Source of the DNA: Armigeres subalbatus
Lineage: Eukaryota > Arthropoda > Insecta > Diptera > Culicidae
Length of the DNA stretch: 64,000 bases
NCBI RefSeq assembly: GCF_024139115.2
Contig: NC_085140.1
Coordinates: 103,986,988 to 104,050,987 of the forward strand
Direction: 5' to 3'
The position numbers were made by a program, and so were the translations under genes. Below the pieces are notes generated by a model that ran no database searches, had not been told where the DNA came from, and saw only the letters and a list, made by a program, of their open reading frames with translations. Of this stretch, positions 12,890-58,928 are shown piece after piece. The first letter of the stretch is position 1. Each line of letters opens with the position of its first letter.

Positions 12890-15800
12890 CAGAGGGGCGA
12901 CACAGCTGTCAAAATCCATAGATAACCCATCTATCTCACATGCGTTTTGGTACTTTGGATTTTGGTACCCACTTTTTGTTGAGTTTACCCTAAGAAAAGG
13001 CTCATTAGGGTAGGCGGATCATAGTACAATTTCACGTATTTAGGGTAATTAATTATTTCACGATGAAAACATGTAGTATTCTTTTAATTTCCAAATTATT
13101 TTTCAAATTGGGTGTCATTGTAATAAATCATCGAGCTTTATTATTGAATATATTTAGCATTATCTCAACCAAATGACAAATGAATCAGTCATCGGGTGTC
13201 TATACTTTTGAAATTGAGTTACAAACTATCATGAAATTGCATACACCATCAGGCTATCGAGATGTGACTATCTGTTATCTGTTAATGTCGAATTATATGA
13301 AATTGAATCTTGCTTATCTTGTCGTAATTCTTGGTCGACTGACTTTGCAATAAATCGTGATGATTTTTCGACAATGCAGATTATAGATAACTACCTACTT
13401 GAGATGAGATTTCCAAGGGCCGATTATTTTTAACTTCGTTTAGTCCTTAAACCAGATTTATCGTATGGATAAGCACCGCATAATACTTTATCGATGGTTA
13501 ATAAATTAACCCTATGTGGGGCAAGCGGAGGATTGAAAAAAAAACAGGAAAATTTCTGTTGTGATTAGCGGCCGTATGTAGGGGTAATGCAGGAAGGAAA
13601 GGGTCTTTTCTTTTCGTACGCTAATTTGTATGACAAAGCGGAGGAAGAAAGTTTGAGAAACCCATAAAAATCCTTTACGTGGTTAGTTAACTTTCCCGTA
13701 CTATGCAATCTTAATTACAGTTTATTTGAGCAGGGTAAAATTAGGAGCTGAAAAGTTTAGAAAAAAGCTTAATTTTAAATGTTTGAAATTGAGTTTTATT
13801 GTTCCCAAATAAGTTCAATGGTTTACATACTGTATATTCTTCAATTCGGTTTGTTTAGAACAAATGATTAATGACCCTCAAACAAAATAAGTTTAGTGAA
13901 CTTGCTTCTAGTAGATTGCTTGAATGGAATGACTGTCTTGGCGTAGCATGCCAATTTGAGATCAATTATTATCTTCATCAGATAAATCCTATGGTTGTCA
14001 CTAGGCTCATTATCTTCAATAATATGCCAAGTCAAGTTACTGAACACATCCTCAAACTGACATTGAAGTCTCTGCATTGTACAACCAAACAGCACTTCAT
14101 AATACTTAGCCACATTGAAACTTTTCTTATCTGAAACCAGGATCGTAAATTCACCGTCCACACATTTTTTGCACCGAACTGCTTGGAGAAGTTTCTTTTG
14201 TACAGAATGTGAGTTCCGTTGCAAAGCTGTGCCTATGAAAGAATCGTCCGTGAACGTATCTACACAAGGAATTTCATTCAACAGTCTAGCCTTCACAGTT
14301 TCAAAACCCTCAACGTCTTCTGAATTTTCAAAGCGGCGGTCATTCATTCTGCTCAAACATTGCTTCGTTTTCTCTTCAGCTACCAACATCACCGATTCAT
14401 TAAAATCCACGCAATTAGCTTTTGACGTACTCTTAATACTATTGTGCGTAATCAATCTTTTATACGCAGCCTTAAATTGAGACACGGTCGGATTATTATT
14501 ACATCCCCCCTTAGCACGAATTGCAGCAAACCACGTTTCAACGTGGTCTTGACTAAAGCGGTAGGTGGCAATATGAGACAACAGTTTTTTCTCCCGTACA
14601 TACTCAATGTACATATCCCGAAAACTTTGGATATTCACTAAAAATCCTAGAAACCCAGTTTTACAGGGACTATTGAGGATACTTTCATGGGACGGTAACA
14701 TAATACCCCGGATGAAGAGCTCGGCGGATGTCATAACTGCATTCAAGTTGTCAAAATTTGCCTCACACATTGGTTTTTTGAAGCCATTCGCAGCGAAATT
14801 TTTCGAGTTCATGATATCAAAAACATCGTTGAAGACTCTGATGAACTCAATCGTTGCATCCACGTCGGCAAATTCAGGATCTATGAATTTCAAAGATTCG
14901 AGTGCATTTGCAACACTTTCACTCAGCGTTTGGGCAGCTAATAGAACTTTCATTTTCTGATTCTGAAAATGCACATGACGATCCGACAAGTTCTGAGCTA
15001 TCTTCATGCCTAAAATAATTCATATTTAAAAGTTAATTTGTATAATAGTTATATTATGGTATTTATACCTGATAGATTTTGTTTCTCATTAAGTTTCTGC
15101 ACATAGTTCCAATCAGCTATTCCACTTGCTGTTAGAGCAAACATGTTTCTCACGAGCTTCAGCATGTGACAAGCATCGAGAATAACAAAGACATTTTCGT
15201 TGGTAGATGGATGCTTGAAGTTTGTTTTGAACGGTTTATTGTTGACACGAAGGTTGCAACCCAAAGCATTGGCCATTGCAATATTAGTGGCCGTTCCGTC
15301 GAAAGCCCGATTACCGTTGCTCCTACGTCGTGAAGTGCAGTCAGTATGGTCTCAGTTAACGATTTCTTGTCCGATGCTCCAATGCCGTTAATGAAAAAGA
15401 AAGCCACAGGAATTTTCCAGCTTTCCTCCACAGATGAGATCATGTAAACTAATGCTTCTTTAGCTACATGTAAGCCGTCTTCAGTGGTAGCATTGAGAAA
15501 ACTAAAAGAGTTTCCAAAGTCAACAGTACCTTCAAATTTCTTCCTATACGGATTCCATTCCGTATGCTGTCTGATTGCGACTTCATCCATACAGAGGCTA
15601 ACGAGAATCGGACGCCCATTAAGGGCCTTCGCTTTTGCTTCAATCGCAGCTATTGATTCAAAGGTCAATCCAGGTTCACCATTGATAGAACGGTACCATC
15701 TTACAATGGAGCGTTGGTGGGGAAGCGTATTCTGGAATGATTCTCGGACGAACTGATAAGCTTTTGCAGAGTAAAAATTGAGTGTTGTCGCAAATCTTCG

Positions 15801-17251
15801 CATATCAGAGCTAAAAAATCCACCTTGTTGTCCATACAAAAGTTCTCTATACAGTTCAGTATTCCTATCCAGTTCCTGGAATAAATATATGAATATTCAG
15901 GTGAATAAAACCGATGATAATCACCTAAAAAACTCAACGTGGTACGTTTACAGACTCATTCACTAATATTAAATGATTATGTGTAACAGATTTGTTTTAA
16001 ATCATTTACCTGTAAAATCAGTTCTCCTTGACCGTTGATCAAATCGTGCTTCTTCAGTTCAGTCATAATACTAGAAAATTTGGCAACTTTCTTTCGCAAA
16101 TGTATATTTTGCTGCTTGAGACGGTTTGTACGTTTTTCAGACCGTTGAAGCTGATTCTGAATCACCGGAATCGCCTGTAGTGCTTGCTGTGGTGTGAGCG
16201 ATGAAATATTCTTTACATCACCTGCATATCTGATCCTAAAATTTACCATATTTAGTGAGTGATTGTAGCATAAATAAATTAACTTAATACTGACCGTTTG
16301 ATCCCTGCTGTTGAGTTAACCATAGGAGTCGCGTTTATGGTTTTGATAGGTGGCATATGGTTCACTGGAACGACCGGATGCACTGGTGAATACTGTGTAA
16401 TTGATGTCGGTCCGATACTTGGGTAGTTCGATTGAGTCGGCTGATCTGTCGATGTCGGTCCGATGCTTAGATGTTTCGATTGAGGCAGCTGATTTGTCTG
16501 GCCTACTGTGGATTTCTGTGGTGATGGTTTATCTTTGAACCCAACGGGATCATCGCTATCCGAAGCCAAAAGGTTCAGCTGTAGGCGTGCTCGAATTGTT
16601 CCGACATCAGAGTCACTGTTTGACGATATTTGTTGCTGATTCGTTATGGTGCCAAGTGGTACCCTGACTTTAGCGTAGCGGTCATTCAAAGCTATGGCTA
16701 CGGCATACTGTTCGTCTATCTCCGTTAGAAATAAACGAGGTATCGCATCCTTCTTGAGCTTCCTTTTCCCGTTCACCAAAACGAAATCAGTTTCGTAGAA
16801 GTGTCTCGAACATATCCTCGCGTTCTCACCCATGAAGCAATCTGTTCCGGATAAAATTTGAATCCAGCGGGCGTTCCTGTCCGGATTCGTCGGAATCCTG
16901 TAATTGGAATGTTGAGTAGAAATAATAACCTTAGAAAAGTAATGTTTACGTTCGGTTTACGCTTACCTGTGTGTTGAAGAACCGCCGTTTTCTTTGCGCA
17001 AATGCATATCGTTTATGCATGATGCTATTAAGCACCGCATACTGCTGCTATTTCCTCCAATTAACACTAATTAGGCTATAAAAAACGGTGAAAACCACGA
17101 TGTTCTCCACGAACATGAAAATTTCAACGCACAACAAAAAATGTTTATGTTTACGTTTGCCACGTATGCACGGTATGCATCAACAACACGAAACCAAAAC
17201 AAAAACATAACCATGTTGAGTAGGCGAAATGATGACAGTAGCATGCCCCTG
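12890..17251 (-). mobile_element. P-superfamily DNA transposon inserted in a LINE
   Basis: A complete-looking element of 4,362 bp. The ends start CAGAGGGGCGAC and CAGGGGCATGC and have imperfect inverted similarity. GCACAGCT is duplicated at 12882-12889 and 17252-17259; an 8-bp duplication is the rule for P elements. The flanking LINE sequence is continuous when the element and one copy of the 8-mer are removed, which fixes the borders. It carries a five-exon THAP transposase and about 980 bp of non-coding DNA at its 3' end. One frameshift makes this copy unlikely to be autonomous. Confidence 0.85.
13868..17040 (-). pseudogene. THAP-domain P-element transposase (THAP9-like), five exons, frameshifted
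   Basis: Exons: 17040-16967, 16897-16295, 16235-16010, 15875-15069 and 15009-13868. All junctions use GT-AG and four of the five exons keep frame. Exons 1-2 give a full THAP DNA-binding domain (C-x4-C, then R..W, C-x2-HF and a late P..F). Exon 3 is a basic coiled coil. Exons 4-5 resemble the RNase H-like core of P transposase: a CMDEVAIRQH aspartate segment, a DGTATN-type block, and a C-terminal SQDHVETWFAAIR…GGCNNNPT region shared with THAP9. About 950 residues in all, longer than Drosophila P (751) and close to THAP9. In exon 4, near 15308-15318, one nucleotide appears missing: the frame before it runs into unrelated residues while the next frame carries the conserved sequence. The exon is 807 nt where 808 would preserve phase. 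It may be an old mutation or a sequence error. Confidence 0.82.
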
Positions 17252-17314: not shown

Positions 17315-18457
17315 CGATGCTGGATCATTAGGCCGAAGGCCGTTAGGCCGAAGGTCATTAGGCCGAAGGCCATTAGGCCGAATGGTCATTAGGCCGAACG
17401 GTCATTAGGCCGAATGGCCATTAGGCCGAATGAGCACTGGGGAGCGAGAAGTGACTAGTGCGAAGTGAGGAAGAAGTAGAACGGAAGAAGAAAAAAAGAA
17501 AAAGAAGGGAGAAGTAAGAAGGAAGAAGAAAAAAGGAAAAAGGAGGAAGAAGTAAGAAGGAAGAAGAAAGAAGTAAGAAGGAAGAAGGTGGAAGGAAGAT
17601 GGAAGAAGAAGGAAGAAAGGGGAAGGAATAAGGAAGAAGGGAGAAGGAATAATGAAGAAGGAAGAAGAAAGACGGGAGAAAGATCGAAGAAAACAGAAGA
17701 AGGAGGAAGAAAGAAGGAAGAAGGAAAAAGGAAGAAGAAAAGAAGAAAGAAGGAAGAAGGAAAAAGGAAGAAGGAAGAAGGAAGAAAGAAGAAGGACGAA
17801 GGAAGAAGGAAGAAGAAAGAAGGAAAAAGGAAGAAGGAAGAAAGAATAAGGAAGAAGGAAGAAGAAAGAAGGAAGAAGGAAGCAAAAAGAAGGAAGAAGG
17901 AAGAAGGGAGAAAGAAGAAGGAAGCAGAAAGAAGGAAGAAGGAAGAAGGAAGAAAGAAGAAGAAAAAAAGAAGAATGAAGAAGGAAGAAGGAAGAAAAAA
18001 GAAGGAAGAAGAAAGAAGAAATAAGGAAGAAGGAAGAAGGAAGAAAGAAGAAGATAGAAGGAAGAAGGAAGAAGGAAGAAGAAAAGAAGAAAGAAGGAAG
18101 AAAGAAGAAGGAAGAAGGATGAGGGAAGCAGGAAGAAGGGAGAACGAAGAAAGAAGGAGGGAGAAGGAAGAAGAAAGAAGGAAGAAGGAAGAAAAAAAGA
18201 AGGAAGAAGGAATAAGGAATAAGGGAGAAGGAAGAAGGAAGAAGGAAGAAAGAAGAAGGAAGATGGAAGAAAGAAGAAGGAAGAATGAAGAAAAAGAAAA
18301 GAAGAAAGAAGAAGGTAGATCCAAGTGGGGCGAAGGAAGAAGAGATAAGGTGGAACTTCTCATTTTTCACTTTATGCTTCTTTTTGCTAATTCGGCCTAA
18401 TGACCTTCGGCCAAATGGCCTTCGGCCTAACGGCCTTTGGCCTTATGGCCTGACACC
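17315..18457. mobile_element. Foldback-like element: TTAGGCCGAA terminal arrays around a purine-rich core
   Basis: Bounded by an 8-bp duplication CTGAAAAA (17307-17314 and 18458-18465) in otherwise continuous LINE sequence. The left terminus has about seven 15-16-bp units of CATTAGGCCGAAGG(C/T) (17327-17430). The right terminus (18391-18457) has about five units in the opposite orientation. The about 940-bp core is GAAGAAGGA-type DNA. Long open frames over the core are low-complexity (Phe/Leu/Ser on one strand, Lys/Glu/Arg on the other) and are not genes. Confidence 0.78.
17431..18370. repeat. Purine-rich (GAAGAAGGA)n tract
   Basis: About 940 bp of nearly pure A/G on the plus strand with imperfect GAAGAAGGAA units. 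It is prone to slipped-strand and triplex structures. Confidence 0.95.
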
Positions 18458-31875: not shown

Positions 31876-32422
31876 TTTATAAGTTCATGGTTCTTCATGG
31901 TTTTTGTTCTGTGTCAATACCTGTCAATACTATCAAACTCAATATAAGTTATGTCTTGTAAAAAGTATAAACATATATATATTCATGCAGCATATATTCA
32001 TAGTCTATTTTATTGTCATTCTTTAATACTTTCGGAAATTATTTAGATTCTCAATTTGTTTTATGAGAATGAGCCAAGTTCAGTAGACTCACTAGACTGC
32101 CATAGTCTCCCTGATTTTTCGGATCTGGTTTCATGTATTAAAACCTATTTTTGTCTACTTTCCGGTGGTTAGTGTGGTGATTAGCTCCTAGCTACTCCAA
32201 AGCTAGAAATTTACTGTCTCAATGTTAGAATAAGGACGCTGCAAAAGCTTCAGACCTTAAGGCTTGCGCAACCAGACATACTTGAGTAGCATAGTAAATG
32301 TTGGATAACAAACCTTCGAGCAACAAATTAGGTTTTGTCCGGCATTTGTATGGAGGCTCGCAACTGTGCGTCTGGTCACTTTTTGTTAGACTAAATATGT
32401 TTTATTTTTCTACCATCAACAG
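31876..32422. other. End of NAD kinase intron 1
   Basis: No feature apart from the acceptor (pyrimidine tract and CAG ending at 32422). Confidence 0.5.
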
Positions 32423-33867
32423 GTTGTAAAAATGTACTCCAAGGTGTCGTAACTTGTCGCGCATTCGGAACGAACCCCAAAGCTAAGCTGCGCAAAGTAT
32501 TGGTTGTGTCGAAACTAACGCGACTAGAATTCGAGAAAACCCGTGACCAAGCCCTCAGCGATGAAAGGCTGGAGCATAAAATTCGCAACCGCGGCTCGGA
32601 CTACGATGCGATGAAATACTATCACCACCTGCACAAGGATGTCGAGGCAGAGGTGGTGAAATCATTCCGCGAGCAAGGAATCGAAGTGAAGGTCGTAACG
32701 CGATTGACCATCAACAAGCATCTCCTGCGATGGGCAGACATGTTGGTGCCCGTTGGAGGCGATGGAACGTTCCTGCTGGCAGCCGGGCGTGCTAGTCCGT
32801 TCATATTGAACGGATCGAGCAAGATGCCCGTAGTGGGATTCAATTCGGATCCTAGGAGATCGGAGGGAAGGCTTATGCTTCCCAAGCACTACTCCAGTAA
32901 CGTAGAGGAAGCCGTAAAACGTATCATTTCCGGCGACTTCAACTGGATGCAGCGATCACGAATCCGGATAACGCTAATAGGAGCAACTACGACGGAACGT
33001 CCACCGCCAATCGATTTACATGAGTACAACGTGGCTCAGGTGGAACATAAAGATGTGATCAATGGTTCTGAGGAAGGCAGCAACAATAGGATTTTACCGT
33101 ACTTAGCGTTAAACGAGGTATGTTTGCGTAATGTTTGAACGTTCTTTGCGATCATTTGATTTATTTTCACTCCAGGTGTTCATCGGAGAAATGCTGTCAG
33201 CACGAGTTTCTCATCTTCACCTTCGACTCGACAAATCGGACGTGGTAACGAAAACCAAAAGCTCTGGGTTGTGCGTCAGCACGGGGACCGGCTCCACATC
33301 GTGGCTGACGAGCATGAACCGACTGTCGACGAACAACGTAAAGGATCTTATCGATATAATAAAACGGCGAACGCAGGCCAGTTCGCTGAATGGAATCGAT
33401 CCGGAAGCCGTGTCGGAGGAGTACAACCATAATTTGGTTTACCCACCGGACGATCCCCGGCTGTGCTACTCAATTAGAGAGCAGATTTGTGTCGGGGTTT
33501 GGCCCAACCCGAAAGGACTCGAATCGAGAGGATTTGCTAAGCAAATTACGGTGAAGTCCAGGTGCATTGATGCAAGTAAGTTGGTAACTGGAGGACATAA
33601 TTCAGTATTTGTACAATATTTATCGACTTTTTGAAAAAAAAAACGACGAGTTGTGGAATAATAATGGGGAAGATAGTTGGTTTTGGTTTTATCTCCATTG
33701 GATTGCAGAGCACTGAATAGTCCGTTTAAAATAAGCTAACTAATGACTTCTTTTTCCTCATAGGCTTAGTGATAGACGGCAGTATTGCGTACAACTTTAA
33801 CGACGGAGCGAAGGCGCTACTCGAGGTACACCCGGAGGACGCGCTGCAGACCATCGACATGAAATGA
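32423..33867 (+). CDS. NADK2: Mitochondrial NAD kinase, coding exons 2-4
   Basis: Exons 32423-33117, 33176-33575 and 33764-33867 (stop TGA) have GT-AG introns of 58 and 188 nt and matching phases. With exon 1 at 7964-8000 the protein is about 411 residues (human NADK2 442). It shows the NAD kinase signature GGDGT (residues about 124-128), a GFNSDPRRSEG block (about 151) that matches the NADK2 NTDPERSEG motif, ALNEVFIGE (about 241-249) and STGTGSTSW (about 279-287), and ends with a VIDGSIAYNFNDGA segment. From family knowledge it phosphorylates NAD to NADP in the mitochondrial matrix. The basic Arg/Lys-rich N-terminus supports import. No in-frame stop or damage was seen. The start TTG at 32500 is not a real start, because the frame is open back to the splice acceptor. 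Confidence 0.93.
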
Positions 33868-35543: not shown

Positions 35544-35548
35544 CAACG

Positions 35549-35587
35549 CACAGTGGTTCCATTCCCATAGGAGAGCGGTCATAAATA
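35549..35587 (+). repeat. Terminal repeat resembling a 23-spacer recombination signal
   Basis: Heptamer CACAGTG, 23 bases (GTTCCATT…GAGCGG), then TCATAAATA. The mirror copy is at 46681-46643. Confidence 0.7.
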
Positions 35588-36261
35588 TATATTACGGAAA
35601 TTATTCGGTAAAATCACATAACATATGTGTAACTCGGGTAGCAAAAGTTGTACCCTTATAACACTTTTTATTTGTTATACAGAACATCGAAACGTCAGAA
35701 GATAGTATAACAGTATTTGATCTAACAAGGGGTCACGCGACTTATATTGTATATCTGAATAAGACTCGCGTTGGAATTATACAAAAGATTGTCCCTAGTG
35801 GCGTTGGGTGAGATAGGGGAAAACAATATTAAAGTAGAAAAGAAAGGAGTTAAAGGCATGTAACTGATTTAATATTGTATTGATATTGATTCGACAAACT
35901 CGAACAAACTCCATTCTTATGCCGCGGTCGGGCTGTTAACTAGTAAACGATGAATTTGTTTGGTGTTTGGTTGAAATTTAGCGCACACATAATCATTCTC
36001 CACGCGAACTACTAATAAAATATGTCCAAATAAACATGTATGTAACTGACTTTTTGTCTTTCAAAAGTCTTCTACACTATGTTTCCTTAAACTATCAATA
36101 ACAACAAGTAAAGTTTCATTTATCGGATTATTTTGAAGAAATATCGATTTTTAAAAAGTTGATGCCTCACCTAGATTTACCCTCAGTTAAATGTTCAATG
36201 CACAGTTTTGGTGTTTTCTGTTTCCTTTTTACATGCCGTTAAAGTTGCTCTACTTTGGGTA

Positions 36262-37082
36262 GGGTAAGACGGTATAATGCGCCCCACCTGGCCAAAACGC
36301 CCCTCTTTGATTTCTAGAAAACTATAACTAACTAAGGGTCAAAATCAGTTGGAACCTATAAATATATGTAAAACCATCGTACTATGTGAATGTGGAAGTA
36401 TTTTTGTTTTACATAATAAAAATAATAGCAAAATACAAAAAGTTACATTTTTTATGTAACTTTTCATGTTTGTTTGCTCAACATTCTGGAGCGATGCTAG
36501 CATACTGTCCGCAAAACTTGCACGGGAACACTCAGTTGGGCAACAAAATAACTTTTCTCAGTGGTTAATATGATATAAAATTGCTTCCATCTTCAAAAAC
36601 GTAACGATTTTCGAAAATATGTTTTACTGGCCAAAACGCCCCAGTGTAGGCAGGACGGTATGCCCTTACCAACTGGACACAAGCGCGGCGAGCTTGCAGC
36701 AGTTGCTTCCAAATGATATGGAAATTATTGAAATGTAATTAAAACCTGATTAAATGGACGTATGGTGGTTTTTGAATGTCAAGCACATAAGGATGCGTAG
36801 CCTTTCTATTATTGGAGTGAGAAAATACTAATGAAGCGCTATGGAACGTCTTTGGCTAAGGTGGGGCGTATTGCCCAGGCACTTTTTGAAATCCATTTTT
36901 TCACGACTTTTCAAAAAAGCATTATTACGTGTTATCTGTAATATTTTTATATGACTACTCACGGGCAATGCATTTGCGACTTCTTGCACTACCAAATAAC
37001 ACAAAGTTTGCATAAATTGCGATGAAATGTAAAAAGTTATCAAGGTTTTGCCTTAGGGGGGGCATATTATACCGTCTTACCC
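36262..37082. mobile_element. TA-target element, GGGTAAGACGGTATAAT ends
   Basis: 821 bp with inverted ends GGGTAAGACGGTATAATGCG and GGGTAAGACGGTATAATATG. TA at 36260-36261 and 37083-37084. Words such as TGGCCAAAACGCCCC recur inside. Non-coding. Confidence 0.85.
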
Positions 37083-37504
37083 TAAAAAGTAATCGGAATA
37101 CTATCAACCCAAAAGCAATGTTCTAATAATGAAAAGAATGCCATGAAAAGAGATAACATTAATATCGTACATCGTAATAACCTATTCAGATTACGTGCTT
37201 CATGGCATGATAAAGATTATCTTGGATTCAATGTTGAATCATCACATTTTCATTTAATATGATATCCAAATTGGAAACACCTCACAGTTGCGATGCTCTC
37301 CTGCATTATGATAAGCGAGCTTGCTTTCGTACGATTGATAATTTATAATGTTGCTTCTAATCTATCTATTTTGTGATTGTTGCGCATCGTAGACAAACAT
37401 TGGCGTATTGGAGTATCCCTCGTCATCCTTACGAAAAAACCGAAGACTGCATATATAAAGATTCGTTCCCAATGTAGAACAGTTCTAAGGAATATACTTT
37501 CCTA

Positions 37505-37700
37505 TATAGATAGTAGAATCTATAGATGAGCGAAAGCATAGCTGAGTCGATTTTTTTGCCCGTGCACACGCGCATATGACGTCACAGCCCTTAACGTTTC
37601 CATTGAAATCGTGACGTCATGCTCGTTTGGAGACACGTTTGACAGTTCGTTTGGAGACAAAGGATTTATCTTCGCTCATCTATATATTCCACTATCTATA
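37505..37700 (+). mobile_element. 196-bp MITE, copy 1, 8-bp duplication CTTTCCTA
   Basis: The ends TATAGATAGTAGAATC… and TATAGATAGTGGAATA… are inverted over about 30 bp to GATGAGCGAA. CTTTCCTA is at 37497-37504 and 37701-37708. Copy 2 at 57371 has the same length in the opposite orientation. The 8-bp target fits a hAT-like MITE. Confidence 0.9.
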
Positions 37701-38550
37701 CTTTCCTACACATGTTGAATCAAATTTACATTTTTACCATGCTGACTCAAAAATATTATATCAATTTCAGAGGAATTTTATTTTCGTCTGATAAATAAGT
37801 TAAAATGAATAAAAGACGAACATTTCATCAAAAAGCGCCTGAAAATAGAAGTTTACTCTACAAATAAATCAAATTAGATTTCATCAAATATAAATTGGTT
37901 AGTAACAGCATAGGAGAGACCTTCTTTTGGATGCAATCCGTCATTTTTAAAAACAATGCAAAAAATTAATGATAGAAAAATAAATATCATTATACTTCGG
38001 CTACAGATCTTGCTCTTTGTAGTCTTGGAAAAAAGTGTTATAATTTTCTGATCATATGGTATTTGTTTACACTTGAAAATGACAGAACGATGTTCCCGTT
38101 CCCAATTATAACAGTTTTGGCTCATCAAAAGGGGGTCAACTTTTGGATTGGATTTTGTTCGAAGATCCACTTATGTTATGTGGTAAAATGGTGTACTTTT
38201 AGTATTTTCGGGTTAAACAGCCTATTTTTTAATTATTTGGTAGGCTCAGTCATTATCATACTTTACGGTGCCAATTTCAGTATTATATGCAAAAATCCAA
38301 CAAACAACGTTCAATTTATATTCTTGAGGAAGATGCGTGGGTGGGAAGATGCTTGTTATTGTGAAAGTAGTAAACGAAAATAAACCTGATTAATCCACCT
38401 AGCGGTGTTAATGCCTTTCTAGTGCGTATGAAAAAAATAGTATTTTTGCCATACCTTTTAGGCCCATTGTGCGATCTGGCCAATTTTTATTAGAAAACAA
38501 AAGGATATGATTCCACGTCGAACTTGTTCCGAACAAATCGGTTAAGTCTA

Positions 38551-38678
38551 GATCAACATTTGGCGTAACAGCCAAATTTTATTCCTTCTGATTCTTTGTC
38601 CACATATATAGCTAAATATGTAGACGAAGAACCAGAAGGAATAAATATTGGCTGTTACGCCCTTTCCAAATGTTGGTC
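38551..38678. repeat. Palindromic segment within copy L
   Basis: GATCAACATTTGGCGTAACA is mirrored near the other end. The arms of about 60 bp contain ATTCCTTCTG…TTTGTC. The same palindrome is at 46127-46254 in copy R. Confidence 0.8.
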
Positions 38679-39236
38679 TTGAAGTATAAGTGCCAAAAAA
38701 ATAAGTGAGTTTTTTTGCGCACATACATACACACGCACAGACATATATCAACTGGTATCTAATACTATGGGTCTCCAGGCACCGTATAACAGTTCGTTTT
38801 TGGAACAAACGTATAGCCTTTACGTATACTTAGTATAGGAGAAAGGCAAAAAGGTTTAATATATCAATTTAAAGTAATATATTTTCACATAAATCATTCA
38901 TAATCCACGATATACTATTTAATAATCTGCACACAGATAGCTTTTGAATGACAGCTAAAAATTTAAATATCTTCTCAGAGATGTCTGAGAATGGAAATCG
39001 GGGAGAAACAAACTTTTCAGTCTCGTGTTCATCAATTTTAGTAATTTGTTACCATCGTTTATTTATTTCTAAGCTCAGTCGCAGACTGTGGTAACTGAAA
39101 TGCCATTTAGGCAGCAGCCAGAAATATGAATACACTTAAAGGATATTCAAAAAGAAATTGAAGCGGTACACGATTAAATTGAGCAGAAAATATTATATCT
39201 GTTAAACAAACATAATTTTGCTATTTGTTTACCCTC

Positions 39237-40070
39237 AGCTTTCTCATGGACGGTTGCAGCTGAAATAGCCTTTAGATGAAAGATAGGAGTATAAATATTT
39301 ACTCAGAGGATGTTTCTGGAGGGGATTTGAAGGGAAAACATACTTTCTTAGTCGATGCAGAATATAACAAAATTGAGTATAAAATTGTGTTACCATCAAA
39401 GAAACACAGTAAAGTTATTTGTTTACCTTTTGCTTGGTCGCGAACGGTCGCAGCTGAAATAGCCTTTAGATGACAGATTAGAGTGTAAATATTTACTCAC
39501 AGGATGTTTCTGGAGGGATTTGAAGGGAAATATATTTTCGTAAAGGATAAAGATTACAAAATTTGGGAGAAAATTGTTTTTCCGTCGGAGAAACATAGTA
39601 AAGTTATTTGTTTACCATTAGCTTGGTCGCAAACGGTCGCAGCTGAAATAGCCTTTAGATGTCAGATTAGAGTGTTAATATTTACTTAGAGGATGTTTCT
39701 GGAGGGGATTTGAAGGGGAAACATACTTTCTTGGAGGATGAAGATAACAAAATTTAGAAGAAAATTGTTTTTCCGTCGAAGAAACATAGAAAAGTTATTT
39801 GTTTACCATTTGCTTGGTCGCAGATGGTCGCAGCTGAAATAGCCTTTAGATGATAGATAATAGTGTAAATATTTACTCAGGGAATGCTTTTGGAGGGGAT
39901 CTGAAGGGGAAACATATTTTATTGGTGGATGATAATCATGAAATTCAGAAGAAAATTGTGAATCCGTTCATCAAACACAGTAGAGTTTTTCGTTGACCAT
40001 TTGCTTGGTTGCGGACGGTCCCAGCTGAAATAGCATGTAGACGACAGATTAGAGTGTAAATATTTACTCA
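39237..40070 (+). repeat. Tandem repeats of about 190 bp inside copy L
   Basis: Four to five units start with GCAGCTGAAATAGCCTTTAG-like motifs near 39257, 39449, 39640, 39830 and 40020. Each has ATATTTACTCA, GGATGTTTCTGGAGGG and TTATTTGTTTACC. Copy R has the same array in reverse (44340-45180). Open frames over the units are by-products. Confidence 0.85.
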
Positions 40071-40291
40071 AAGGATATTTCAAGAGGGAATTCAAGGGTA
40101 AAACATAAGTTTCATGAGGTATGCCAACATTTTCACGTATAGTTTATTTAGCTGGATTATCTTAAATCCGAAGCCTTATACAGAGCATATTAGCTCAAAT
40201 TCTATGAAAATGACGATTGCATCTTATATAGTATACCATAAAGTAGCAGTTTAGGGATAACTTGTTGAATTTCGATAAAGTCATGATTTTA

Positions 40292-40320
40292 TATTTATGA
40301 CCTATGGGGGAACCACTGTG
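40292..40320 (-). repeat. Terminal repeat resembling a 12-spacer recombination signal
   Basis: Read from 40320 on the minus strand: CACAGTG, GTTCCCCCATAG(G), TCATAAATA, so the spacer is 12-13 bases. The mirror copy is at 44093-44121. Confidence 0.7.
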
Positions 40321-42045
40321 CGACGACCGCCGCGGTACGACCTAGAGCGACTGAAGCAACCTGATGTCGCCACTGCGTACGCGCAGTAGCTCGATGGGGC
40401 CCCTCTTGAGGACTGCTGGAATACAGTCAAAGCAGCCATTAACGACGCAGCGGAGAACAACGTCGGATATATGGGACGAAGTCGACGGAACGATTGGTTC
40501 GACTAAGAGTGCAGACAGATTCTGGAGGAGAAGGACGCAGCGCGGGCGAGCGGTCGCACTGCAGCAAGGTACCCGGCAGAACGTGGAACGTTATAGACGG
40601 AAGCGGAGACAGCAGACCCGCCTTTTTCAGGAGAAGAAATGCCGCCTGGAAGTAGCGGAGTGCGAGGAGATGGAACAGCTGTGCCGTTCTCAAGAAACAC
40701 GCAAGTTCTACAAGAAGCTAAACGCATCCCGCAAAGGCTTCGTGCCGCGAGCCGAAATGTGCCGGGATAAGGATGGGAGCATCTTGACGGACGAACGTGT
40801 GGTGATTGAAAGGTGGAAGAACATTTGAATGGCGCTGAGAGTACAGGCAGTGAAAGTCAAGGCAGCGGAGGAGATGACTACGTCAGTTCAGCGGACGATG
40901 GAAGCCAACCAGCCCCCACCTTGAGGGAAGTTAAGGATGCCGTCCAACAGCTAAAGACCAATAAAGCAGATGGTAAGGATGGTGTCGGAGCTGAGCTCAT
41001 CAAGATGGGCCCGGAAAAGCTAGCCACTTGCCTGCACAAACTGTTAGTCAGAATCTGGGAAACTGAACAGCTAGCGGAGGAGTGGAAGGAAGGGGTTATA
41101 TGCCCCATCTACAAGAAAGGCGACAAGCTGGAGTGTGAGAACTTTCGGGCAATCACCATCCTTAATGCCGCCTACAAAGTGATATCCCAGATCATCTTCC
41201 GTCGTCTGTCACCATTAGTGAATGAGTTCGTGGGAAGTTATCAAGCTGGCTTCGTTGACGGCCGCTCGACAACGGACCAGATCTTTACTGTACGGCAAAT
41301 CCTTCAAAAATGCCGTGAATACCAGTTCCCAACGCACCATCTGTTCGTTGATTTCAAGGCGGCATACGACAGTATAGACCGCGCAGAGCTATGGAATATT
41401 ATGGACGAGAACAGCTTCCCTGGGAAGTTTACCAGACTGATCAAAGCAACGGTGGATGGTGTGCAGAACTGTGTGAAGATTCCGGGCGAACACTCCAGTT
41501 CGTTCGAATCGCGCCGGGGACTAAGACAAGGTGATGGACTTTCGTGCCTGTTGTTCAACATTGCACTAGAAGGTGTCATGCGGAGAGCCGGGTTTAATAG
41601 TACGATTTTAAACAGATCCAGTCAATTTATTTGTTTCGCGGATGACATGGACATTGTCGGCCGAACATTTGCAAAGGTGGCAGAACTGTACACCCGACTA
41701 CGTGAAGCAACAAAAGTTGGACTGGTGGTGAATGCGTCAAAGACAAAGTACATGCTTGTGGGCGGAACCGAGCGCGACAGGGCCCGCCTGGAAAGTAATG
41801 TTACTATATGCGGGGCTGATAACAATGTTAGTCGTGAAATACGAAGACGCATCATCTGTGGAAGTCGGGCTCCAGAAGAAACTGCGTTCAAAAAAGATTC
41901 ACCACCGCACCAAATGTACCTACACATACAAAATAATGCGTGTATGATGCATGGCAAACCGTTCTCTGCTGAGAGTGCACGTGTTGGACAACATGTGGCG
42001 GTGCGTAGTTTTGGTATTGTGGAGTAAAATATAACGCGCCCCCAT
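40321..42045 (+). pseudogene. LINE 3' part: linker and reverse transcriptase, damaged
   Basis: It begins mid-protein at the edge of copy L with RRPPRYDLERLKQPD. A linker follows (QGTRQNVERYRRKRRQQTRL), then an RT domain (about 40900-41850) with FRAITILNAAYKV, FVDFKAAYDSIDR, RRGLRQGDGLS and the catalytic FADDMDIVG (about 41640). Several in-frame stops lie before the RT. A deletion after VSREIRRRII (about 41865) shifts the frame, and similarity stops near 41945. The matching 5' half (endonuclease) is on the minus strand at 46682-46976, so this LINE was split by a transposon and then separated by an inversion. Clade uncertain, RTE-like. Confidence 0.88.
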
Positions 42046-42603
42046 CGCAGCATTTTAGTTGCCTCATATCCAAGGAATGTAAAATAACAACATTGCCAAT
42101 GACAACAACATTATCCTCTCTTGTAAATGTTGGGACAAACTCAACTCGCAATAAGCGTTTGTCCCAAACTGCAACAGAATAGGACAATGATCGCCTGCCA
42201 CGCATTTTGAGAAGTAGTCGGTTTCCGATGATGTTTTAGGTTAAATTAGTATCAGCAGCGCCGTAGCGTGTGGTTGGCCAGGTAGGCCCTCGCCAAGGGC
42301 GCCAGGCCTTTGGGGCGCCGAAATCCAGAATTGAGCTTTTGGAAATGATGGTAAATCCTATCAAGATTTTTTTACGCGGTTGGATGCCACTTGAATTTTC
42401 TTGTTTTTTTGTGATTTTTTTGGTGGAGTTTACTCATTGTTTTATTGATGTTGAAGGTCTAAATCGTTTAAAATCAAACCATGTAATAAACCTTGATGTA
42501 TTCTCAAATTCACTGATTCAAAGTGTTTCAGATTCACCAGAGCTTTTACCAGACGACGGGGGACTATATCCGTTTTACTTCCGAAAGACCATTTCTCTCC
42601 AAT
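42046..42603. repeat. Dispersed repeat, related to 50256-50650
   Basis: 42062-42205 (ACAACATTGCCAATGACAAC, GTTGGGACAAACTCAACTCG, CGCCTGCCACGCATTT) is nearly identical to 50256-50390. AAGTAGTCGG…GATGATGTTTT also recurs at 50608. No coding gene recognised; the 111-codon frame at 42270 has no domain. Confidence 0.6.
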
Positions 42604-42616
42604 AACTGATACCCGG

Positions 42617-42908
42617 GCCCTCCTTAGCCGTGCGGTAAGACGCGCAGCTACAAAGCAAGACCATGCTGAGGGTGGCTGGGTTCGATTCCCAGCGCCGGTC
42701 TAGGCAATTTTCGGATTGGAAATTGACTCGACTTCCCTGGGCATAAAAGTATCATCGTGCTAGCCTCATGATATACGAATGCAAAAATGGTAACTTGGCT
42801 TAGAAACCTCGCAGTTAATAACTGTGGAAGTGCTTAATGAACACTAAGCTGCGAGGCGGCTCTGTCCCAGTGTGGGGATGTAATGCCAATAAGAAGAAGA
42901 AGAAGAAG
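42617..42908 (+). mobile_element. Feilai-type SINE, full length
   Basis: CCCTCCTTAGCCGTGCGG head, B box GGTTCGATTCCCAG, conserved body, (GAA)n tail at about 42892-42910. The flanks AACTGATACCCGG and AACTAATACAGG are an imperfect target duplication. Confidence 0.85.
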
Positions 42909-42910
42909 AA

Positions 42911-44087
42911 CTAATACAGGTACCAGAACGTCGGCTCTGGGAGCATCTTCACTAACTTTTTTTTATCATTTATCTGATGAAAAAGGAAGTGAAAATGGGA
43001 AGGAACAAGAAATACAATTGAAAAAAAGAATGGAACAAGTTTCTGGGGAAGAAGCCCTAGATGAGGACTTCAATAAGCCAAAGGCGAAACACAGAGTAGA
43101 CTGTAAAAATCGCGTATAATTTTTGTTCGTGATTAAGAAATCTAAGCGGGTTTCAAATACATTCGACTCTCTACATCTCGATGTTTAATATCTCGATATC
43201 TCTCCCTATGGTGATGGTTTTCTTGGTCCCTTCAATCTACATAGATTTGAGCTTTCTACATCTCGATAACCTCCCTCTCTCGATATCTCTCTATCTCGAT
43301 GTGTTCTGGACGTTCTGGTCATATTTTGTTCAGGATTATTTTTCCTTCCCTGTATTGTTGTCGTTTTTTATAGCAACGAGCTTTTTCGATCTAATACCCA
43401 TTTCAATTTTCCTCCCATTACTCGATCTCTCCTTATCTCGATGGTCTGTAATAGCGACTGTAATAGATCTTCGGAAGTAGTGATAGGGAGTTTGGCAAAC
43501 TATTTGAGGCTCTATCGCATTCTATCGTTAACTATCGCATATGATGCAGTGATATTTCCAATTCTTTTTAACCAGACAATTGCATGATGGTGAAAAAACA
43601 AGCAAAGCTGTTGAATATTCGATGATATTTGTAATTTGATTTTTTATTCTGGGTCTATACAATCTGGTAAAGCTTTAAACGAGGCATTTATCTACAGACA
43701 TGATGAGTCGAGAATCTGCTTCGAGGGATTTCAGTAATGATGGCAACTGATCCACTTGAAAGTTATTGGCCTAACCAATGCAACCAATGCTACCAAGCTA
43801 CCGATCAACGTGGATAAACCCACTCCAGGAATAGGTCCGGAGTTGTTTCTTTTTTAATACGACTTGGTCCAATCGATATTTCTACCTTCTACCAATCCTC
43901 TCCAAAGTTGTACTTCATTTGAAGTCCAGTAGTTCTTTCAAACCACCGACCAAGGTCATTCGATCCACTCCAAAGCAGGGTTCTTCTTGATGCGACTACG
44001 TCCGATAGTGATCCAACCACTGCCTGACCTGACTTAAGGGATGGATTTTATTGGCCTAGCTAAATACACTAGTTTTTATTTTGCTTG
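42911..44087. other. No gene; degenerate ATCTCGAT stretch at 43160-43450
   Basis: An imperfect ATCTCGAT/ATCTCTC repeat runs through 43160-43450. The rest is unrecognised. The block lies inside the segment inferred to be inverted. Confidence 0.45.
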
Positions 44088-44092
44088 CGTTG

Positions 44093-44121
44093 CACAGTGG
44101 TTCCCCCATAGGTCATAAATA
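44093..44121 (+). repeat. 12-type terminal repeat of copy R
   Basis: CACAGTG, 12-13-base spacer, TCATAAATA; identical to the inner end of copy L. Confidence 0.7.
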
Positions 44122-44339
44122 TAAAATCATGACTTTATCGAAATTCAACAAGTTATCCCTAAACTGCTACTTTATGGTATACTATATAAGATGCAATCGT
44201 CATTTTTATAGAATTTGAGCTAATATGCTCTGTATAAGGCTTCGAATTTAAGATAATTCAGTTAAATAAACTATACGTGAAAATGTTGGCATACCTCATG
44301 AAACTTATGTTTTACCCTTGAATTCCCTCTTGAAATGTC

Positions 44340-45180
44340 CTTTGAGTAAATATTTACACTCTAATCTGTCGTCTACATGCTATTTCAGCTGGGACCGTCC
44401 GCAACCAAGCAAATGGTCAACGAAAAACTCTACTGTGTTTGATGAACGGATTCACCATTTTCTTCTGAATTTCATGATTATCATCCACCAATAAAATATG
44501 TTTCCCCTTCAGATCCCCTCCACAAGCATTCCCTGAGTAAATATTTACACTATTATCTATCATCTAAACGCTATTTCAGCTGCGACCATCTGCGACCAAG
44601 CAAATGGTAAACAAATAACTTTTCTATGTTTCTTCGACGAAAAAAACCATTTTCTTCTAAATTTTGTTATCTTCATCTTCCAAGAAAGTATGTTTCCCCT
44701 TCAAATCCCCTCCAGAAACATCCTCTAAGTAAATATTAACAATCTAATCTGACATCTACAGGCTATTTCAGCTGCGACCGTTTGCGACCAAGCTAATGGT
44801 AAACAAATAACTTTACTATGTTTCTCCGACGGAAAAACAATTTTCTCCTAAATTTTGTAATCTTTATCCTTTACGAAAATATATTTCCCCTTCAAATCCC
44901 CTCCAGAAACATCCTGTGAGTAAATATTTACACTCTAATCTGTCATCTAAAGGCTATTTCAGCTGCGACCGTTCGCGACCAAGCAAAAGGTAAACAAATA
45001 ACTTTACTGTGTTTCTTTGATGGTAACACAATTTTATACTCAATTTTGTTATATTCTGCATCCACTAAGAAAGTATGTTTCCCCTTCAAATCCCCTCCAG
45101 AAACATCCTCTGAGTAAATATTTATACTCCTATCTTTCATCTAAAGGCTATTTCAGCTGCAACCGTCCATGAGAAAGCTG
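44340..45180 (-). repeat. Tandem repeats of about 190 bp inside copy R
   Basis: Mirror of the array at 39237-40070, with the same unit and order. Confidence 0.85.
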
Positions 45181-45202
45181 AGGGTAAACAAATAGCAAAA
45201 TA

Positions 45203-45581
45203 AGGCATTTTATGAGACGTTTCGCGGTGGCCCGTTTATTTACTTCTAATGTTTTGTTTTGGTATGATTCTGCGTGGCGTGAACATTCCGTTAGGTCCGA
45301 ACACAAAATAATGTTTGTAACGTTTTACTTTTCATTCGTGTTTTCTTCAGCATTTCATGCTTAGAATGCAATGGTATGAATTATCTAACGATACATTTTA
45401 AGAATCATATGAAAAACTATGTTCTAAAACCCTGGTAGACGAAAAGTAAAACAGGCAGAATTGATGATGGGACCCATCGGAATGTTCGGCGTGAAATTAC
45501 CAAACAAACGGGCTCCCACTAATTGTCAAAGTAGATAAACACGAGAAAAACAGCTGTTTCGATCTGTCTCATAAAATGCCT
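45203..45581. mobile_element. MITE in copy R, AGGCATTTTATGAGAC ends
   Basis: 379 bp, inverted ends AGGCATTTTATGAGAC, flanked by TA. It is absent from the same site in copy L, so it was inserted after the copies arose. Confidence 0.82.
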
Positions 45582-46126
45582 TATTATGTTTGTTTAACAA
45601 ATATAATATTTTCTGCTCAATTTAATCGTGTACCGCTTCAATTTCTTTTTGAATATCCTTTAAGTGTATTCATATTTCTGGCTGCTGCCTAAATGGCATT
45701 TCAGTTACCACAGTCTGCGACTGAGCTTGGAAATGAATAAACGATGGTAAAAAAATACCAAAATTGATGAACACGAATATTATGTTTCTCCCCGATTTCC
45801 ATTCTCAGACATCTCTGAGAAGATATTTAAATTTTCAGCTGTCATTCAAGAGCTATCTGTGTGCAGATTATTAAATAGTATATCGTGGATTATGAATGAT
45901 TTATGTGAAAATATATTACTTTAAATTGATATATTAAACCTTTTTGCCTTTCTCCTATACTAAGTATACGTAAAGGCTATACGTTTGTTCCAAAAACGAA
46001 CTGTTATACGGTGCCCGGAGACCCATAGTATTAGATACCAGATGATATATGTCTGTGCGTGTGTATGTGTGTGTATGTATGTGCGCAAAAAAAAACTCAC
46101 TTATTTTTCAGGCACTTATACTTCTA

Positions 46127-46254
46127 GACCAACATTTGGAAAGGGCGTAACAACCAATATTGATTCCTTCTGATCCTTCGTCTACATATTTAGCTATATA
46201 TGTGGACAAAGAACCAGAAGGAATAAATTTTGGCTGTTACGCCAAATGTTGATC
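46127..46254. repeat. Palindromic segment within copy R
   Basis: Counterpart of 38551-38678. Confidence 0.8.
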
Positions 46255-46642
46255 TAGACTTAACCGATTTGTTCGGAACAAGTTCGACGTGGAATCATAT
46301 CCTTTTGTTTTCTAATAAAAATTGGCCAGATCGTACAATGGGCCTAGAAGGTATGGCAAAAATACTATTTTTTCATACGCACTAGAAAGGCATTAACACC
46401 GCTAGGTGGATTAATCAGGTTTATTTTCGTTTACTACTTTCACAATAACAAGCATCTTCCCACCCACGCATCTTCCTCAAGAATATAAATTGAACGTTGT
46501 TTGTTGGATTTTTGCATATAATACTGAAATTGGCTCCGTAAAGTATGATAATGACTGAGCCTACCAAATAATTAAAAAATAGGCTGTTTAACCCGAAAAA
46601 TACTAAAAGTACACCATTTTACCGAATAATTTCCGTAATATA

Positions 46643-46681
46643 TATTTATGACCGCTCTCCTATGGGAATGGAACCACTGTG
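46643..46681 (-). repeat. 23-type terminal repeat of copy R
   Basis: CACAGTG, 23-base spacer, TCATAAATA read from 46681 leftward; identical to the outer end of copy L. Confidence 0.7.
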
Positions 46682-46976
46682 CGTCGGTACCGGCGCAGTT
46701 TCACCATCACCAGATAGTGGTCAGAGTCGATGTTAGCGCCACAATATGTCCTGACGTCGATAATGTCGGAAAAGTGCCGTCCATCAATCAGAACGTGGTC
46801 GATTTGTGATTCTGTCTGCAGTGGTGATCTCCAGGTGTACCAATACGGGAGGCTGTGTTGGAAGTAGGTGCTGCGAATGGCCATATTTTTGGAGGCGGCG
46901 AAATCAATTAGTCGTAGGCCGATGACCGTAGTATGCACGGACGATAGAATAAGCTCGTTTATGTGATGTCTACATG
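46682..46976 (-). pseudogene. LINE endonuclease C-terminal part (5' half of the split LINE)
   Basis: The minus strand encodes RLIDFAASKNMAIR, YTWRSPLQTESQIDHVLI and ANIDSDHYLVMVKLRR, the end of an APE-type endonuclease with its SDH motif. It stops at copy R. With one CGACG removed, its last codons run in frame into the linker at 40321 (…RRYRRPPRYDLERLK), so the two are parts of one LINE. Confidence 0.85.
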
Positions 46977-56474: not shown

Positions 56475-58928
56475 TTTCTAGCGCTACTGCGTTCGTTCGT
56501 TGCTCCACTGTGTGCGGGTGGATGCACCGAGAGAATGTCCTTGGCGACGGCGTCTGTCACCCACGCAAACAATGAAAATATTATTCTTTTTTGATAGCAC
56601 CACAGTTCCACAGTTTTGAACTAATTACACGTCGACTGCTAAATGCCGTCTCAGATTATATTAAGGAATGTAAACTTTCTTTAGTAAGATGTAAAATTTT
56701 TCTTGCGAATTAAAAAGAACACAATTCGACGCGCTGCATTGTATCTTTGAACTGCCACCCACCGCAGCTGATGCGTAAATTTGATTAATCGACATGCGAG
56801 CGACTGTTGTTCAATTTAATTAGAGATGTGAGCCGTATAGTCGACATAGCGTCATCATTTCCGGGAAAACAAAAAAAGAGGAAATACGGGAAATGGGCAG
56901 GTAACCATTAAGCATTTTAATAAGCCTTATGTTAACCATATATTGTGATTCTCAAGATATTGCAGTTTGCGTTGAGTTCGCCAAATGCACGAAGTTGCAG
57001 CAAACATGCAAAAGATCTTACATACAGTGTTGCTGATTAATTTATTTTTCAAGAAGATTATGTTATAATCGAAGTCGTAATGTTTTGTCATTCTATTTAA
57101 GCAATATATAATGAGCTATTACTCCACATTTAAAATATTGTGATAGAAAGTTATTTTTTTACAGGAAACTATGATAAAACTAATAAATAAAGTGAAAATG
57201 TTTGACATACTTCCCCTGAAAAGTAAGTAAAACATGTTAGCACCACTGCTCCGATGTACACATCAAACTAAAACTAACGTGAATCCAATGAATAACACGC
57301 CTAAAACAGACGAATCAGCATGAATTTTGACAGCTCGTTCCTGTGCAAGTTGCTTGCAGGTTGTCTGCAATATAGATAGTGGAATATATAGATGAGCGAA
57401 GATAAATCCTTTGTCTCCAAACGAACTGTCAAACGTGTCTCCAAACGAGCATGACGTCACGATTTCAATGGAAACGTTAAGGGCTGTGACGTCATATGCG
57501 CGTGTGCACGGGCAAAAAAATCGACTCAGCTATGCTTTCGCTCATCTATAGATTCTACTATCTATAGTCTGCAATGCTAATTTTATTTGCAAATCGCAAT
57601 ATTATAGCATTTTGCTCATTCACCTCTACCTCGCTTAGTTGTGCGCCGCTAAGGTACTTTATCATATTGTGGTACTCACTCACTTTAAGTGAAGAATATT
57701 ACATCACAAATTAAACACAATTTCTCTAATAAGATCCACTCAAACAATATACCAAACGCAACGCAGGCGAGAGAAAAGCAAAAAACTACTAAAAATCGAT
57801 AAATTTCACTAAAGAATATCTTTTTGTAAAGGGACAACAATATGCTGCATACCTTAGAAGCGAATGTGGAAAAGCTCGCCGAAAGCTCATTTACTTTTTG
57901 CATGGCGCACAACCCGGCGCGTGGAACCCGGCGCGTAACCGTTGAGCTAGTATGCTAATTTTAGAATAATATCTTGAGAATCACAATAATCACCATTTGT
58001 TTAGAGAACTGCAGCATATTGCATGGAGTATGCATGCCAGATAACTGATTCATAAGCTGTAGACGCTGTAGATTTAGTCTATAGCGATATTTATTAGTCG
58101 TTACTTGAAGAATGGATTCATAAATACCCCGATAAATACAAAAACTTCAATGTTATTACAGATTTTTCATGTTTCCATTTTCATGCTACCCAGCCCTTGA
58201 ATTGTAGGCAAATAGAATCCTTTTGTTTATTAACCCTTCCCAGACACATATCTGCTCAATTCTGAGGTAGATTAGATGGCAAACACTCATCGACCATCCG
58301 AAACCACATACTTGTTCCAAACACAGCAAGCGTTCAAATCCAGTAATTAACGTAATAAGCAAAAAGAAACAAATCTCCAATGGGAAGAAAAAGGAATAAT
58401 GAATTAAAATGCGTAAATGAATATTTTTCGTTTCATTTTTTTTTTTGTTCCTTCCTTACTCGTCTAAAAATTTTGACATTTTAGCATAGGCGTGGAAAAA
58501 TAGGTAGGGGCATGCAGTATATCAGCCAAATAATTCGCCAAAAATGGCTTTTGAGCAGCATTAAAGCATTATTTAGGTCTTACTAGCATTGTAGCCAACT
58601 TTTTTATGCGACTATAAAACCGAAATAAAGCCGGTTTTAACGGCTTAGTGGTTACTTGGGTAGTCTTTACCTTAGGCCAAACAATCTTGACCACCTTCAA
58701 CACAATAAATTTTCCCATTGTGTTAAAAATGTGAAATTGTGAAGTACTAGATTATGTCGATGTCGACTGCCAGATTTTTTTTCCTTCTTTTTTGTTTACA
58801 AATCGCGATTTGCTCCTCCAAATTTGCACAAAAATCCAAAATGCAAAACTTTAGTTTATGTTACAAATAATTATTCGCTTAATGATAAATAAGTTGTGAT
58901 TGCAGTGTTGAACTAGTCCAGTAGCAAA
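56475..58928. other. Intergenic region between divergent kinase and zinc-finger genes
   Basis: Holds the 5' UTRs and promoters of both genes and the 196-bp MITE copy 2. Short open frames show no domain. Confidence 0.5.
57371..57566 (-). mobile_element. 196-bp MITE, copy 2, 8-bp duplication GTCTGCAA
   Basis: Reverse complement of the MITE at 37505-37700 with only a few differences and the same length. GTCTGCAA is at 57363-57370 and 57567-57574. Confidence 0.92.

Follow-up and report, generated by a model that had tools for sequence, protein, structure and literature searches.

Two Transib copies with unequal ends

The window analyzed here is a 64-kb stretch of DNA from the mosquito Armigeres subalbatus (contig NC_085140.1, positions 103,986,988 to 104,050,987), and the coordinates of all features described in it are window positions. 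It carries two copies, A and B, of a non-autonomous transposon of the Transib type. Transib transposases form a family related to the enzyme that rearranges antibody genes. Copy A (35549..40320, plus strand), delimited by its ends and flanks, spans 4772 bp including a nested insert of 2568 bp. Copy B (44093..46681, minus strand) spans 2589 bp including a nested insert of 381 bp, and the two copies are oppositely oriented. Without their inserts A and B measure 2197 and 2208 bp and are 97.8% identical, with mismatches at 49 of the 2190 bases aligned. The longest open frame is 74 aa in B; a frame of 135 aa in A crosses the edge of the nested insert.

Each copy has one long end and one short end. 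In both copies the long end reads CACAGTG-GTTCCATTCCCATAGGAGAGCGG-TCATAAATA, with a spacer of 23 bp between the heptamer and the inner block, and the short end reads CACAGTG-GTTCCCCCATAGG-TCATAAATA, with a spacer of 13 bp. In copy A the 23-type end lies on the plus strand (heptamer 35549..35555, spacer 35556..35578, block 35579..35587) and the 13-type end on the minus strand (heptamer 40314..40320, spacer 40301..40313, block 40292..40300). In copy B the 13-type end is on the plus strand (heptamer 44093..44099, spacer 44100..44112, block 44113..44121) and the 23-type end on the minus strand (heptamer 46675..46681, spacer 46652..46674, block 46643..46651). These are the end coordinates that the first-pass annotation had given, and the CACAGTG heptamer, which is that of the vertebrate recombination signal sequence (RSS), is present at all four ends as it had claimed. 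The 12/23-like spacing that it proposed was confirmed with a correction. The difference of 10 bp and the block common to both ends are real, but the spacers are never exactly 12/23, being 13/23, or 12/22 if the block is shifted by one.

The end sequence CACAGTGGTTCC occurs exactly at four places in the window, 35549 (+), 40320 (-), 44093 (+) and 46681 (-), which bound A and B; going by the reversed-pattern control over the whole genome, chance would give about 0.002 in a stretch of this length. With up to two mismatches allowed there were nine sites, compared to 2.75 in shuffled sequence. In 20,000 trials with random sequence of like composition, any 9-mer common to two ends was found in 0.6%, and a common 9-mer at 12/23 (± 1) in 0.005%.

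Flanking duplications and an inversion between the copies

As assembled, the flanks of A are CAACG/CGACG and those of B are CGTTG/CGTCG, so that each pair matches at four of five positions. When the segment between the copies (40321..44092) is flipped back, the flanks become CAACG/CAACG for A and CGTCG/CGTCG for B. The outer half of the target duplication of A (CAACG, 35544..35548, plus strand) has its twin at 44088..44092 (minus strand), and the duplication of B (CGACG) has one half at 40321..40325 (plus strand), inside a long interspersed nuclear element (LINE), and its outer half at 46682..46686 (minus strand); in each case the half that lies between the copies would have been moved there by the inversion. 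The empty site of B reconstructed in this way unites two halves of the LINE, the reverse transcriptase of which is at 40810..42024. The duplications in the window thus look imperfect only as a result of the inversion of the intervening DNA. That both duplications and the LINE become continuous on re-inversion argues for two ordinary insertions followed by an inversion. The insertions would have been independent, with A landing at CAACG and B at CGACG within the LINE, and ordinary recombination between the inverted copies would then have flipped the intervening 3.77 kb, an event that would explain the one-base mismatch now seen between the flanks of each copy.

Distribution of the ends in the genome

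The first-pass annotation had noted that both ends agree in both copies. This is correct, but A and B belong to one family and their agreement is inheritance rather than independent support; the rest of the genome is the test. We scanned the assembly (1.336 Gb, 2076 contigs) using the reversed pattern as a control. Exact CACAGTGGTTCC was found 347 times (170 + 177), compared to 39 (22 + 17) for the reversed control. The 23-type end, with at most one mismatch, was found 155 times and the 13-type end 139 times, and a pattern composed of the heptamer, GTTCC, a gap of 3-30 and TCATAAAT was found 237 times; none of these three patterns had a match in the control. Among the first 100 listed of the 237 matches, spacers were 13 bp (46), 23 bp (45), 12 bp (4), 22 bp (3), 17 bp (1) and 31 bp (1), and the 38 neighboring pairs among the matches listed were 13/23 (31), 12/23 (3), 13/22 (2), 13/31 (1) and 12/22 (1).

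Twenty-six two-ended copies, chosen by the presence of the CACAGTGGTTCC end sequence with its CACAGTG start included, were fetched. The 13/23 split seen in the window was exact in 20 of the 26; the remaining six were 12/22, 12/23 (three copies), 13/22 and 13/31. Every fetched pair joined a short end (12-13 bp) to a long one (22, 23 or 31 bp). Pairs were counted among 200 ends listed (100 of the 155 23-type ends and 100 of the 139 13-type ends), and all 65 convergent pairs no more than 10 kb apart combined a 13-type with a 23-type end. Symmetric elements (23/23 or 13/13), which would have spoken against unequal ends, were absent from the 26 fetched copies and from these 65 convergent pairs. When the distance was extended to 20 kb, a single convergent 23/23 combination appeared among the ends listed, formed by the two outer ends in the window, 11.1 kb apart. 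A variant with a 10-bp spacer (L008, 10/23) was considered as a mobile subfamily and ruled out, as the genome has only one such site. In viral contigs, a scan for the end gave two stretches.

Duplication lengths from 3 to 9 bp were tested in 28 insertions, the 26 fetched copies and A and B after re-inversion. The 5-bp duplications claimed for the family were exact in 21 of the 28, including the two in the window, and no exact duplication longer than 5 bp (6-9 bp) was found in any of them; the 8-bp duplications expected of a hAT element were thus absent. The first base was C and the last base was G in 15 of the 21 exact duplications.

Gene-carrying partners

Three elements with the same ends encode a transposase. 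One (L016) is 3950 bp long, with a CAGCG duplication on the strand of the element, and a second (L030) is 7354 bp long, with a CATTG duplication; both have 13/23 ends and contain transposase pieces. The third (L051) was reached by the protein search and carries its transposase between a 23-type end at C3:41527499 and a 13-type end at C3:41533856, with CAGTG on both sides. Two pieces from L016 matched the Helicoverpa zea transposase HzTransib (PDB 6pqn; E 1.5e-28 and 4e-33), and the C-terminal piece also matched RAG1 chains (from E 0.0014). The match of L016 to the Pfam RAG1 profile (E 2.6e-5) scored 23 bits, 2 below the cut-off of 25. Read off the alignments, the catalytic D, D and E of L016 fall at positions 109, 208 and 419 of the HzTransib chain, which, once a constant offset of 17 is applied, become D126, D225 and E436, the catalytic residues given for HzTransib in the available text of PMC6941560. 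No second long gene was seen among the frames of L016 (80 aa or longer) or L030 (100 aa or longer), where no RAG2 profile search was made.

A protein search of the genome with a 170-aa query, in which 150 of 402 candidates were scored, found at least 86% identity at seven places or parts of places; other Transib families were lower. When 5.8 billion proteins were searched, the closest relatives of the transposase read-through were 49-51% identical, and among named proteins there were relatives in D. ananassae (45%) and D. yakuba (42%). A tree of 50 transposases placed the family in a clade of 19 rows together with Drosophila proteins, the D. ananassae and D. yakuba relatives among them (100/100). 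By the transposase of its partners, its 5-bp duplications and its RSS-like heptamer starting with CAC, the 13/23 family is a Transib. The assignment made by the first-pass annotation was therefore sound, and the autonomous partner with a RAG1-related transposase that it suggested looking for was found in L016, L030 and L051, none of which encodes a transposase of another kind.

Conservation and alignment of the ends

When the gene-carrying elements were compared with the gene-less ones, the 13-type end was identical over 34 of 34 bp and then matched at 40 of 66, and the 23-type end was identical at 38 of 40 bp and then matched at 19 of 60. At both ends the conserved stretch stops just inside the block. 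Since the sequence of the spacer is conserved as well, recognition of the terminal region as a whole accounts for this pattern better than a free spacer of the RSS kind does.

Next to the 13-type end, each window copy has an array of 4.5 tandem repeats of 191 bp (39250..40107, plus strand, in A; 44338..45194, minus strand, in B). The repeats of the gene-carrying elements (497-867 in L016, 499-1187 in L030) are 63-71% related to those of the gene-less elements and vary in copy number, so that the 13-type side is homologous beyond the end itself, though diverged. Such repeats are a possible seed of satellite DNA.

The two spacers can be aligned as GTTCC-(ATT)-CCCATA-(GAAGGGC)-GG, in which the bracketed segments of 3 and 7 bp together make up the difference of one helical turn. 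The score of this alignment was matched by 23 of 5000 shuffles. Because the spacers align, the 10-bp difference most likely came from small insertions or deletions in one shared terminal repeat. On the simplest reading, then, a single terminal repeat would have given rise to both ends by small insertions and deletions that came to one helical turn in total.

Origin and meaning of the unequal spacers

We conclude that A and B are very probably non-autonomous Transib elements that were mobilized in trans by the transposase of sister elements, that they inserted separately and became rearranged by a later inversion, and that the difference between their spacers is old. The transposase would be supplied by elements such as L016, L030 and L051, which have the same ends. 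By analogy with HzTransib and RAG, it would bind one 23-type and one 13-type end and nick just outside CAC, leaving the flanking DNA closed as hairpins and the element with blunt ends. These blunt ends would then be joined to the target with a 5-bp stagger, preferably at sites resembling C-R-N-Y-G. The 10-bp spacer difference would be old within the family.

Several observations weigh against this reading. An unbroken frame across the transposase was found in none of the fetched gene-carrying copies. The gene is open in several pieces with changes of frame, fragments and stops inside L030, where two TGA codons interrupt a transposase piece; the breaks may reflect introns or decay. Exact 5-bp duplications were lacking in 7 of the 28 insertions, which had 4 bp (three), four of five matches (two), 3 bp (one) or none (one). 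Among the 21 exact duplications, no more than 14 matched C-R-N-Y-G in full, and two of the insertions (L021 and L022) are not independent because one flank is common to both. There are also 22 unpaired CACAGTGGTTCC sites (L003-L010 and L037-L050), at which the block was plausible in seven, spurious in one (L042) and absent in 14.

The asymmetry itself is probably, if by no means securely, a matter of history rather than of a rule. The family would have inherited one long and one short end from its founder. Its transposase would read approximately all of the terminal 34-40 bp and put up with a difference of one helical turn, and no restriction of the 12/23 type would operate. All copies would descend from an asymmetric parent, and such descent accounts for the lack of symmetric pairs (0 of 65 among the ends listed) with no need of a rule. 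The spacer sequence is kept between gene-carrying and gene-less elements, unlike that of RSS spacers, and the ends of three further Transib families of this genome are symmetric. According to the accessible part of PMC7204232, which argues this case, invertebrate RAG-like complexes depend on the outer 15-17 bp, and asymmetry affects them relatively little. Less readily explained by history is that the 10-bp difference is held in nearly all copies, including those with diverged interiors. The exceptions (12, 22, 17 and 31 bp) amount to 9 of the first 100 spacers listed, and where the duplication is intact the spacer may have changed by mutation once the copy had inserted.

A functional requirement is less likely. 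Here the transposase would require an end of each type, 13 and 23, under a 12/23-like rule that operates without RAG2. In its favor, L016, L030 and L051 as well as the gene-less elements have the block at two spacings that differ by one helical turn, and the pairs counted were mixed in 65 cases of 65. Moreover, the sole 23/23 combination within 20 kb among the ends listed, that of the outer ends in the window, gives no sign of having moved as a unit, and each half of its flanks fits its own insertion. However, the same data are expected by descent alone, and spacers of 12, 22 and 31 bp occur alongside exact duplications (L014, L022, L024, L025 and L027), reflecting either later mutation or tolerance. 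If such a pairing rule existed, and we regard this as a speculative possibility, the transposase would synapse a 13-type with a 23-type end by way of the common inner block, and the aligned spacers might have caught the step from symmetric to 12/23-like ends, beside symmetric Transibs.

Homology of the inner block with the RSS nonamer, which would make the ends true relatives of RSSs past the heptamer, appears doubtful. The first-pass annotation had called the block nonamer-like. It is common to both ends, but its likeness to the nonamer ACAAAAACC is weak, with 5 of 9 positions matching at both types of end in the window, a score that has a 6.7% chance at a fixed place. The genome consensus of the 13-type end offers somewhat better matches, TCATAAATC, 13 bp from the heptamer (6/9), and CCAAAAACA, 21 bp from it (7/9). 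Yet the latter would make the pair 21/23, which argues against a literal 12/23 reading, and the best nonamer scores over spacers of 8-35 bp were within the range of shuffled sequences, the proportion of shuffles that reached them being 82% and 97% at the 23-type ends and 21% and 49% at the 13-type ends. Of the features that define an RSS, the 13/23 family thus has the heptamer but neither spacers of exactly 12 and 23 bp nor the nonamer ACAAAAACC.

The exchange of flanks between A and B might instead have been produced by the transposase acting on the two facing 13-type ends, in an inversion resembling a hybrid joint. The breakpoints coincide with the elements or fall within them, and precise joining of ends would yield the same map. 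Still, the facing arms of A and B are 98% alike across 558 nt, and inverted arms of such identity 3.8 kb apart are an ordinary substrate for homologous recombination, while the reaction would have to pair two 13-type ends. We consider this alternative very improbable next to recombination. That the family is a hAT or other element with an end merely resembling CACAGTG is hardly credible and was rejected, for the only point in its favor is that CAGTGGTT resembles the ends of some hAT elements, while duplications of 6-9 bp were found in none of the 28 insertions and 5-bp duplications in 21, and the partners encode a Transib transposase.

Other features of the window

The insert nested in copy A (35615..38182, 2568 bp) has ends CACATAACATAWGTG and a 7-bp duplication, GTAAAAT. 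No transposase was seen in it, and, with one mismatch allowed, its end was not found again within the window. It is possibly a P-like non-autonomous element, although this is a guess. Within it, 196 bp (37505..37700) are identical to 57371..57566 on the minus strand, 20 kb away. The insert nested in copy B (45202..45582, 381 bp) has inverted ends AAGGCATTTTATGAGAC and is missing from A. Both copies contain a near-perfect 100-bp palindrome with 50-nt arms (38562..38661 and 46144..46243, 88% alike), which is probably an older nested element.

Elsewhere in the window, a gene for a P-element-type transposase lies in pieces at 13868..16956 (minus strand), with THAP, P-element helix-turn-helix, RNase H-like and GTP-binding insertion domains. 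A low-complexity region at 17405..18442 is open over long frames on either strand, and these abound in F, L, P and S or in K and E. A frame at 32398..33138 is 94% identical to NAD kinase 2, in a cluster named for Ochlerotatus camptorhynchus, which by itself points to an Aedes-type (Aedini) mosquito.

Comparison with other Transibs and RAG systems

Six loci representing five further Transib families were sampled in the same genome. The ends could be resolved in three of these families (F58, F59 and F60) and were long and symmetric in all three, the symmetry being read from a single copy of each. The F58 element is 4154 bp long, with a CGCCG duplication, CACAGTG ends and inverted repeats of 748 bp; F59 is 4366 bp, with CGGCA, CACTGTG and 601 bp; and F60 is 4664 bp, with CATTG, CACAGTG and 784 bp. 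Their inverted repeats are at least 97.6% alike, with no difference in spacing. F57 has inverted arms with ends that were not resolved, and F61/F62, which are one family, have no long arms. The transposases of F58, F59 and F60 are 34-35% identical to that of the 13/23 family and belong to other clades. In the tree of 50 transposases, F57, F58 and F60 grouped in a clade of four (100/100) apart from the 13/23 family; F59 and F61/F62 were also apart, F59 on a long branch with an unsure placement. F58 and F60 surpassed the 13/23 family in nonamer score relative to shuffles (1.9% and 0.6%, at spacers of 9 and 29). At one end of the F60 element (L060, ends at C2:106668356 and C2:106673019), ACAAAAACT matches the nonamer at 8 of 9 positions 29 bp from CACAGTG, as in 0.6% of shuffles; the opposite end differs at that place.

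The first-pass annotation had suggested that asymmetric spacing in an insect element would be informative on the origin of the 12/23 rule. The asymmetry is real but not new. A 12/23 (± 1) arrangement is described for Transib5 of D. melanogaster and for Transib2, N1, N2 and N3 of Anopheles gambiae in the available text of PMC8355894, which cites the data of Kapitonov and Jurka 2005, so an asymmetric insect Transib was already in print. Like the 13/23 family, these elements combine an RSS-like heptamer with spacers that differ between the two ends by about one helical turn. They belong to another family and another lineage, and our comparison with them is by that description only. Other Transibs are given there with symmetric spacers of 20-22 bp, and the portion of PMC8289069 available likewise describes most Transib families as symmetric. 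Our literature searches, which did not cover Repbase, found no published description of the Armigeres 13/23 family. In summary, the 13/23 ends are real, asymmetry of this kind is already known in insect Transibs, and a dependence of mobility on it would be hypothetical. New here are the autonomous partner, the depth of copies and the alignable spacers that differ by 3 + 7 bp.

With its many copies, gene-carrying partners and alignable spacers, and with symmetric Transib families beside it to serve as internal controls, the 13/23 family makes two matters directly testable, namely whether a Transib transposase prefers unequal ends without RAG2 and whether pairing is altered when one spacer gains or loses 10 bp. 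HzTransib (6pqn) has a related DDE transposase and, in the accessible part of PMC1852546, a 5-bp duplication as in the 13/23 family, but it is given as symmetric-ended in PMC8289069, compared to 13/23 here. With vertebrate RAG1/RAG2 and the RSS, the family has in common the exact heptamer CACAGTG and 5-bp duplications that lean toward GC, and the C-terminal part of its transposase matches RAG1 weakly (E 0.0014). Its spacers differ from those of the RSS in being 13/23 and conserved in sequence, with no clear nonamer, and no RAG2 gene was seen in the frames of L016 or L030, to which no RAG2 profile was applied. ProtoRAG of amphioxus also has asymmetric ends that start with CAC, but it carries RAG1L and RAG2L, and its spacers, 27/31 bp in that part of PMC8289069, are of lengths unlike those of the 13/23 family. 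It is for the origin of the 12/23 rule that such comparisons matter: HzTransib is described as symmetric-ended, ProtoRAG is asymmetric at other lengths and, going by PMC8355894, a few insect Transibs are 12/23-like.

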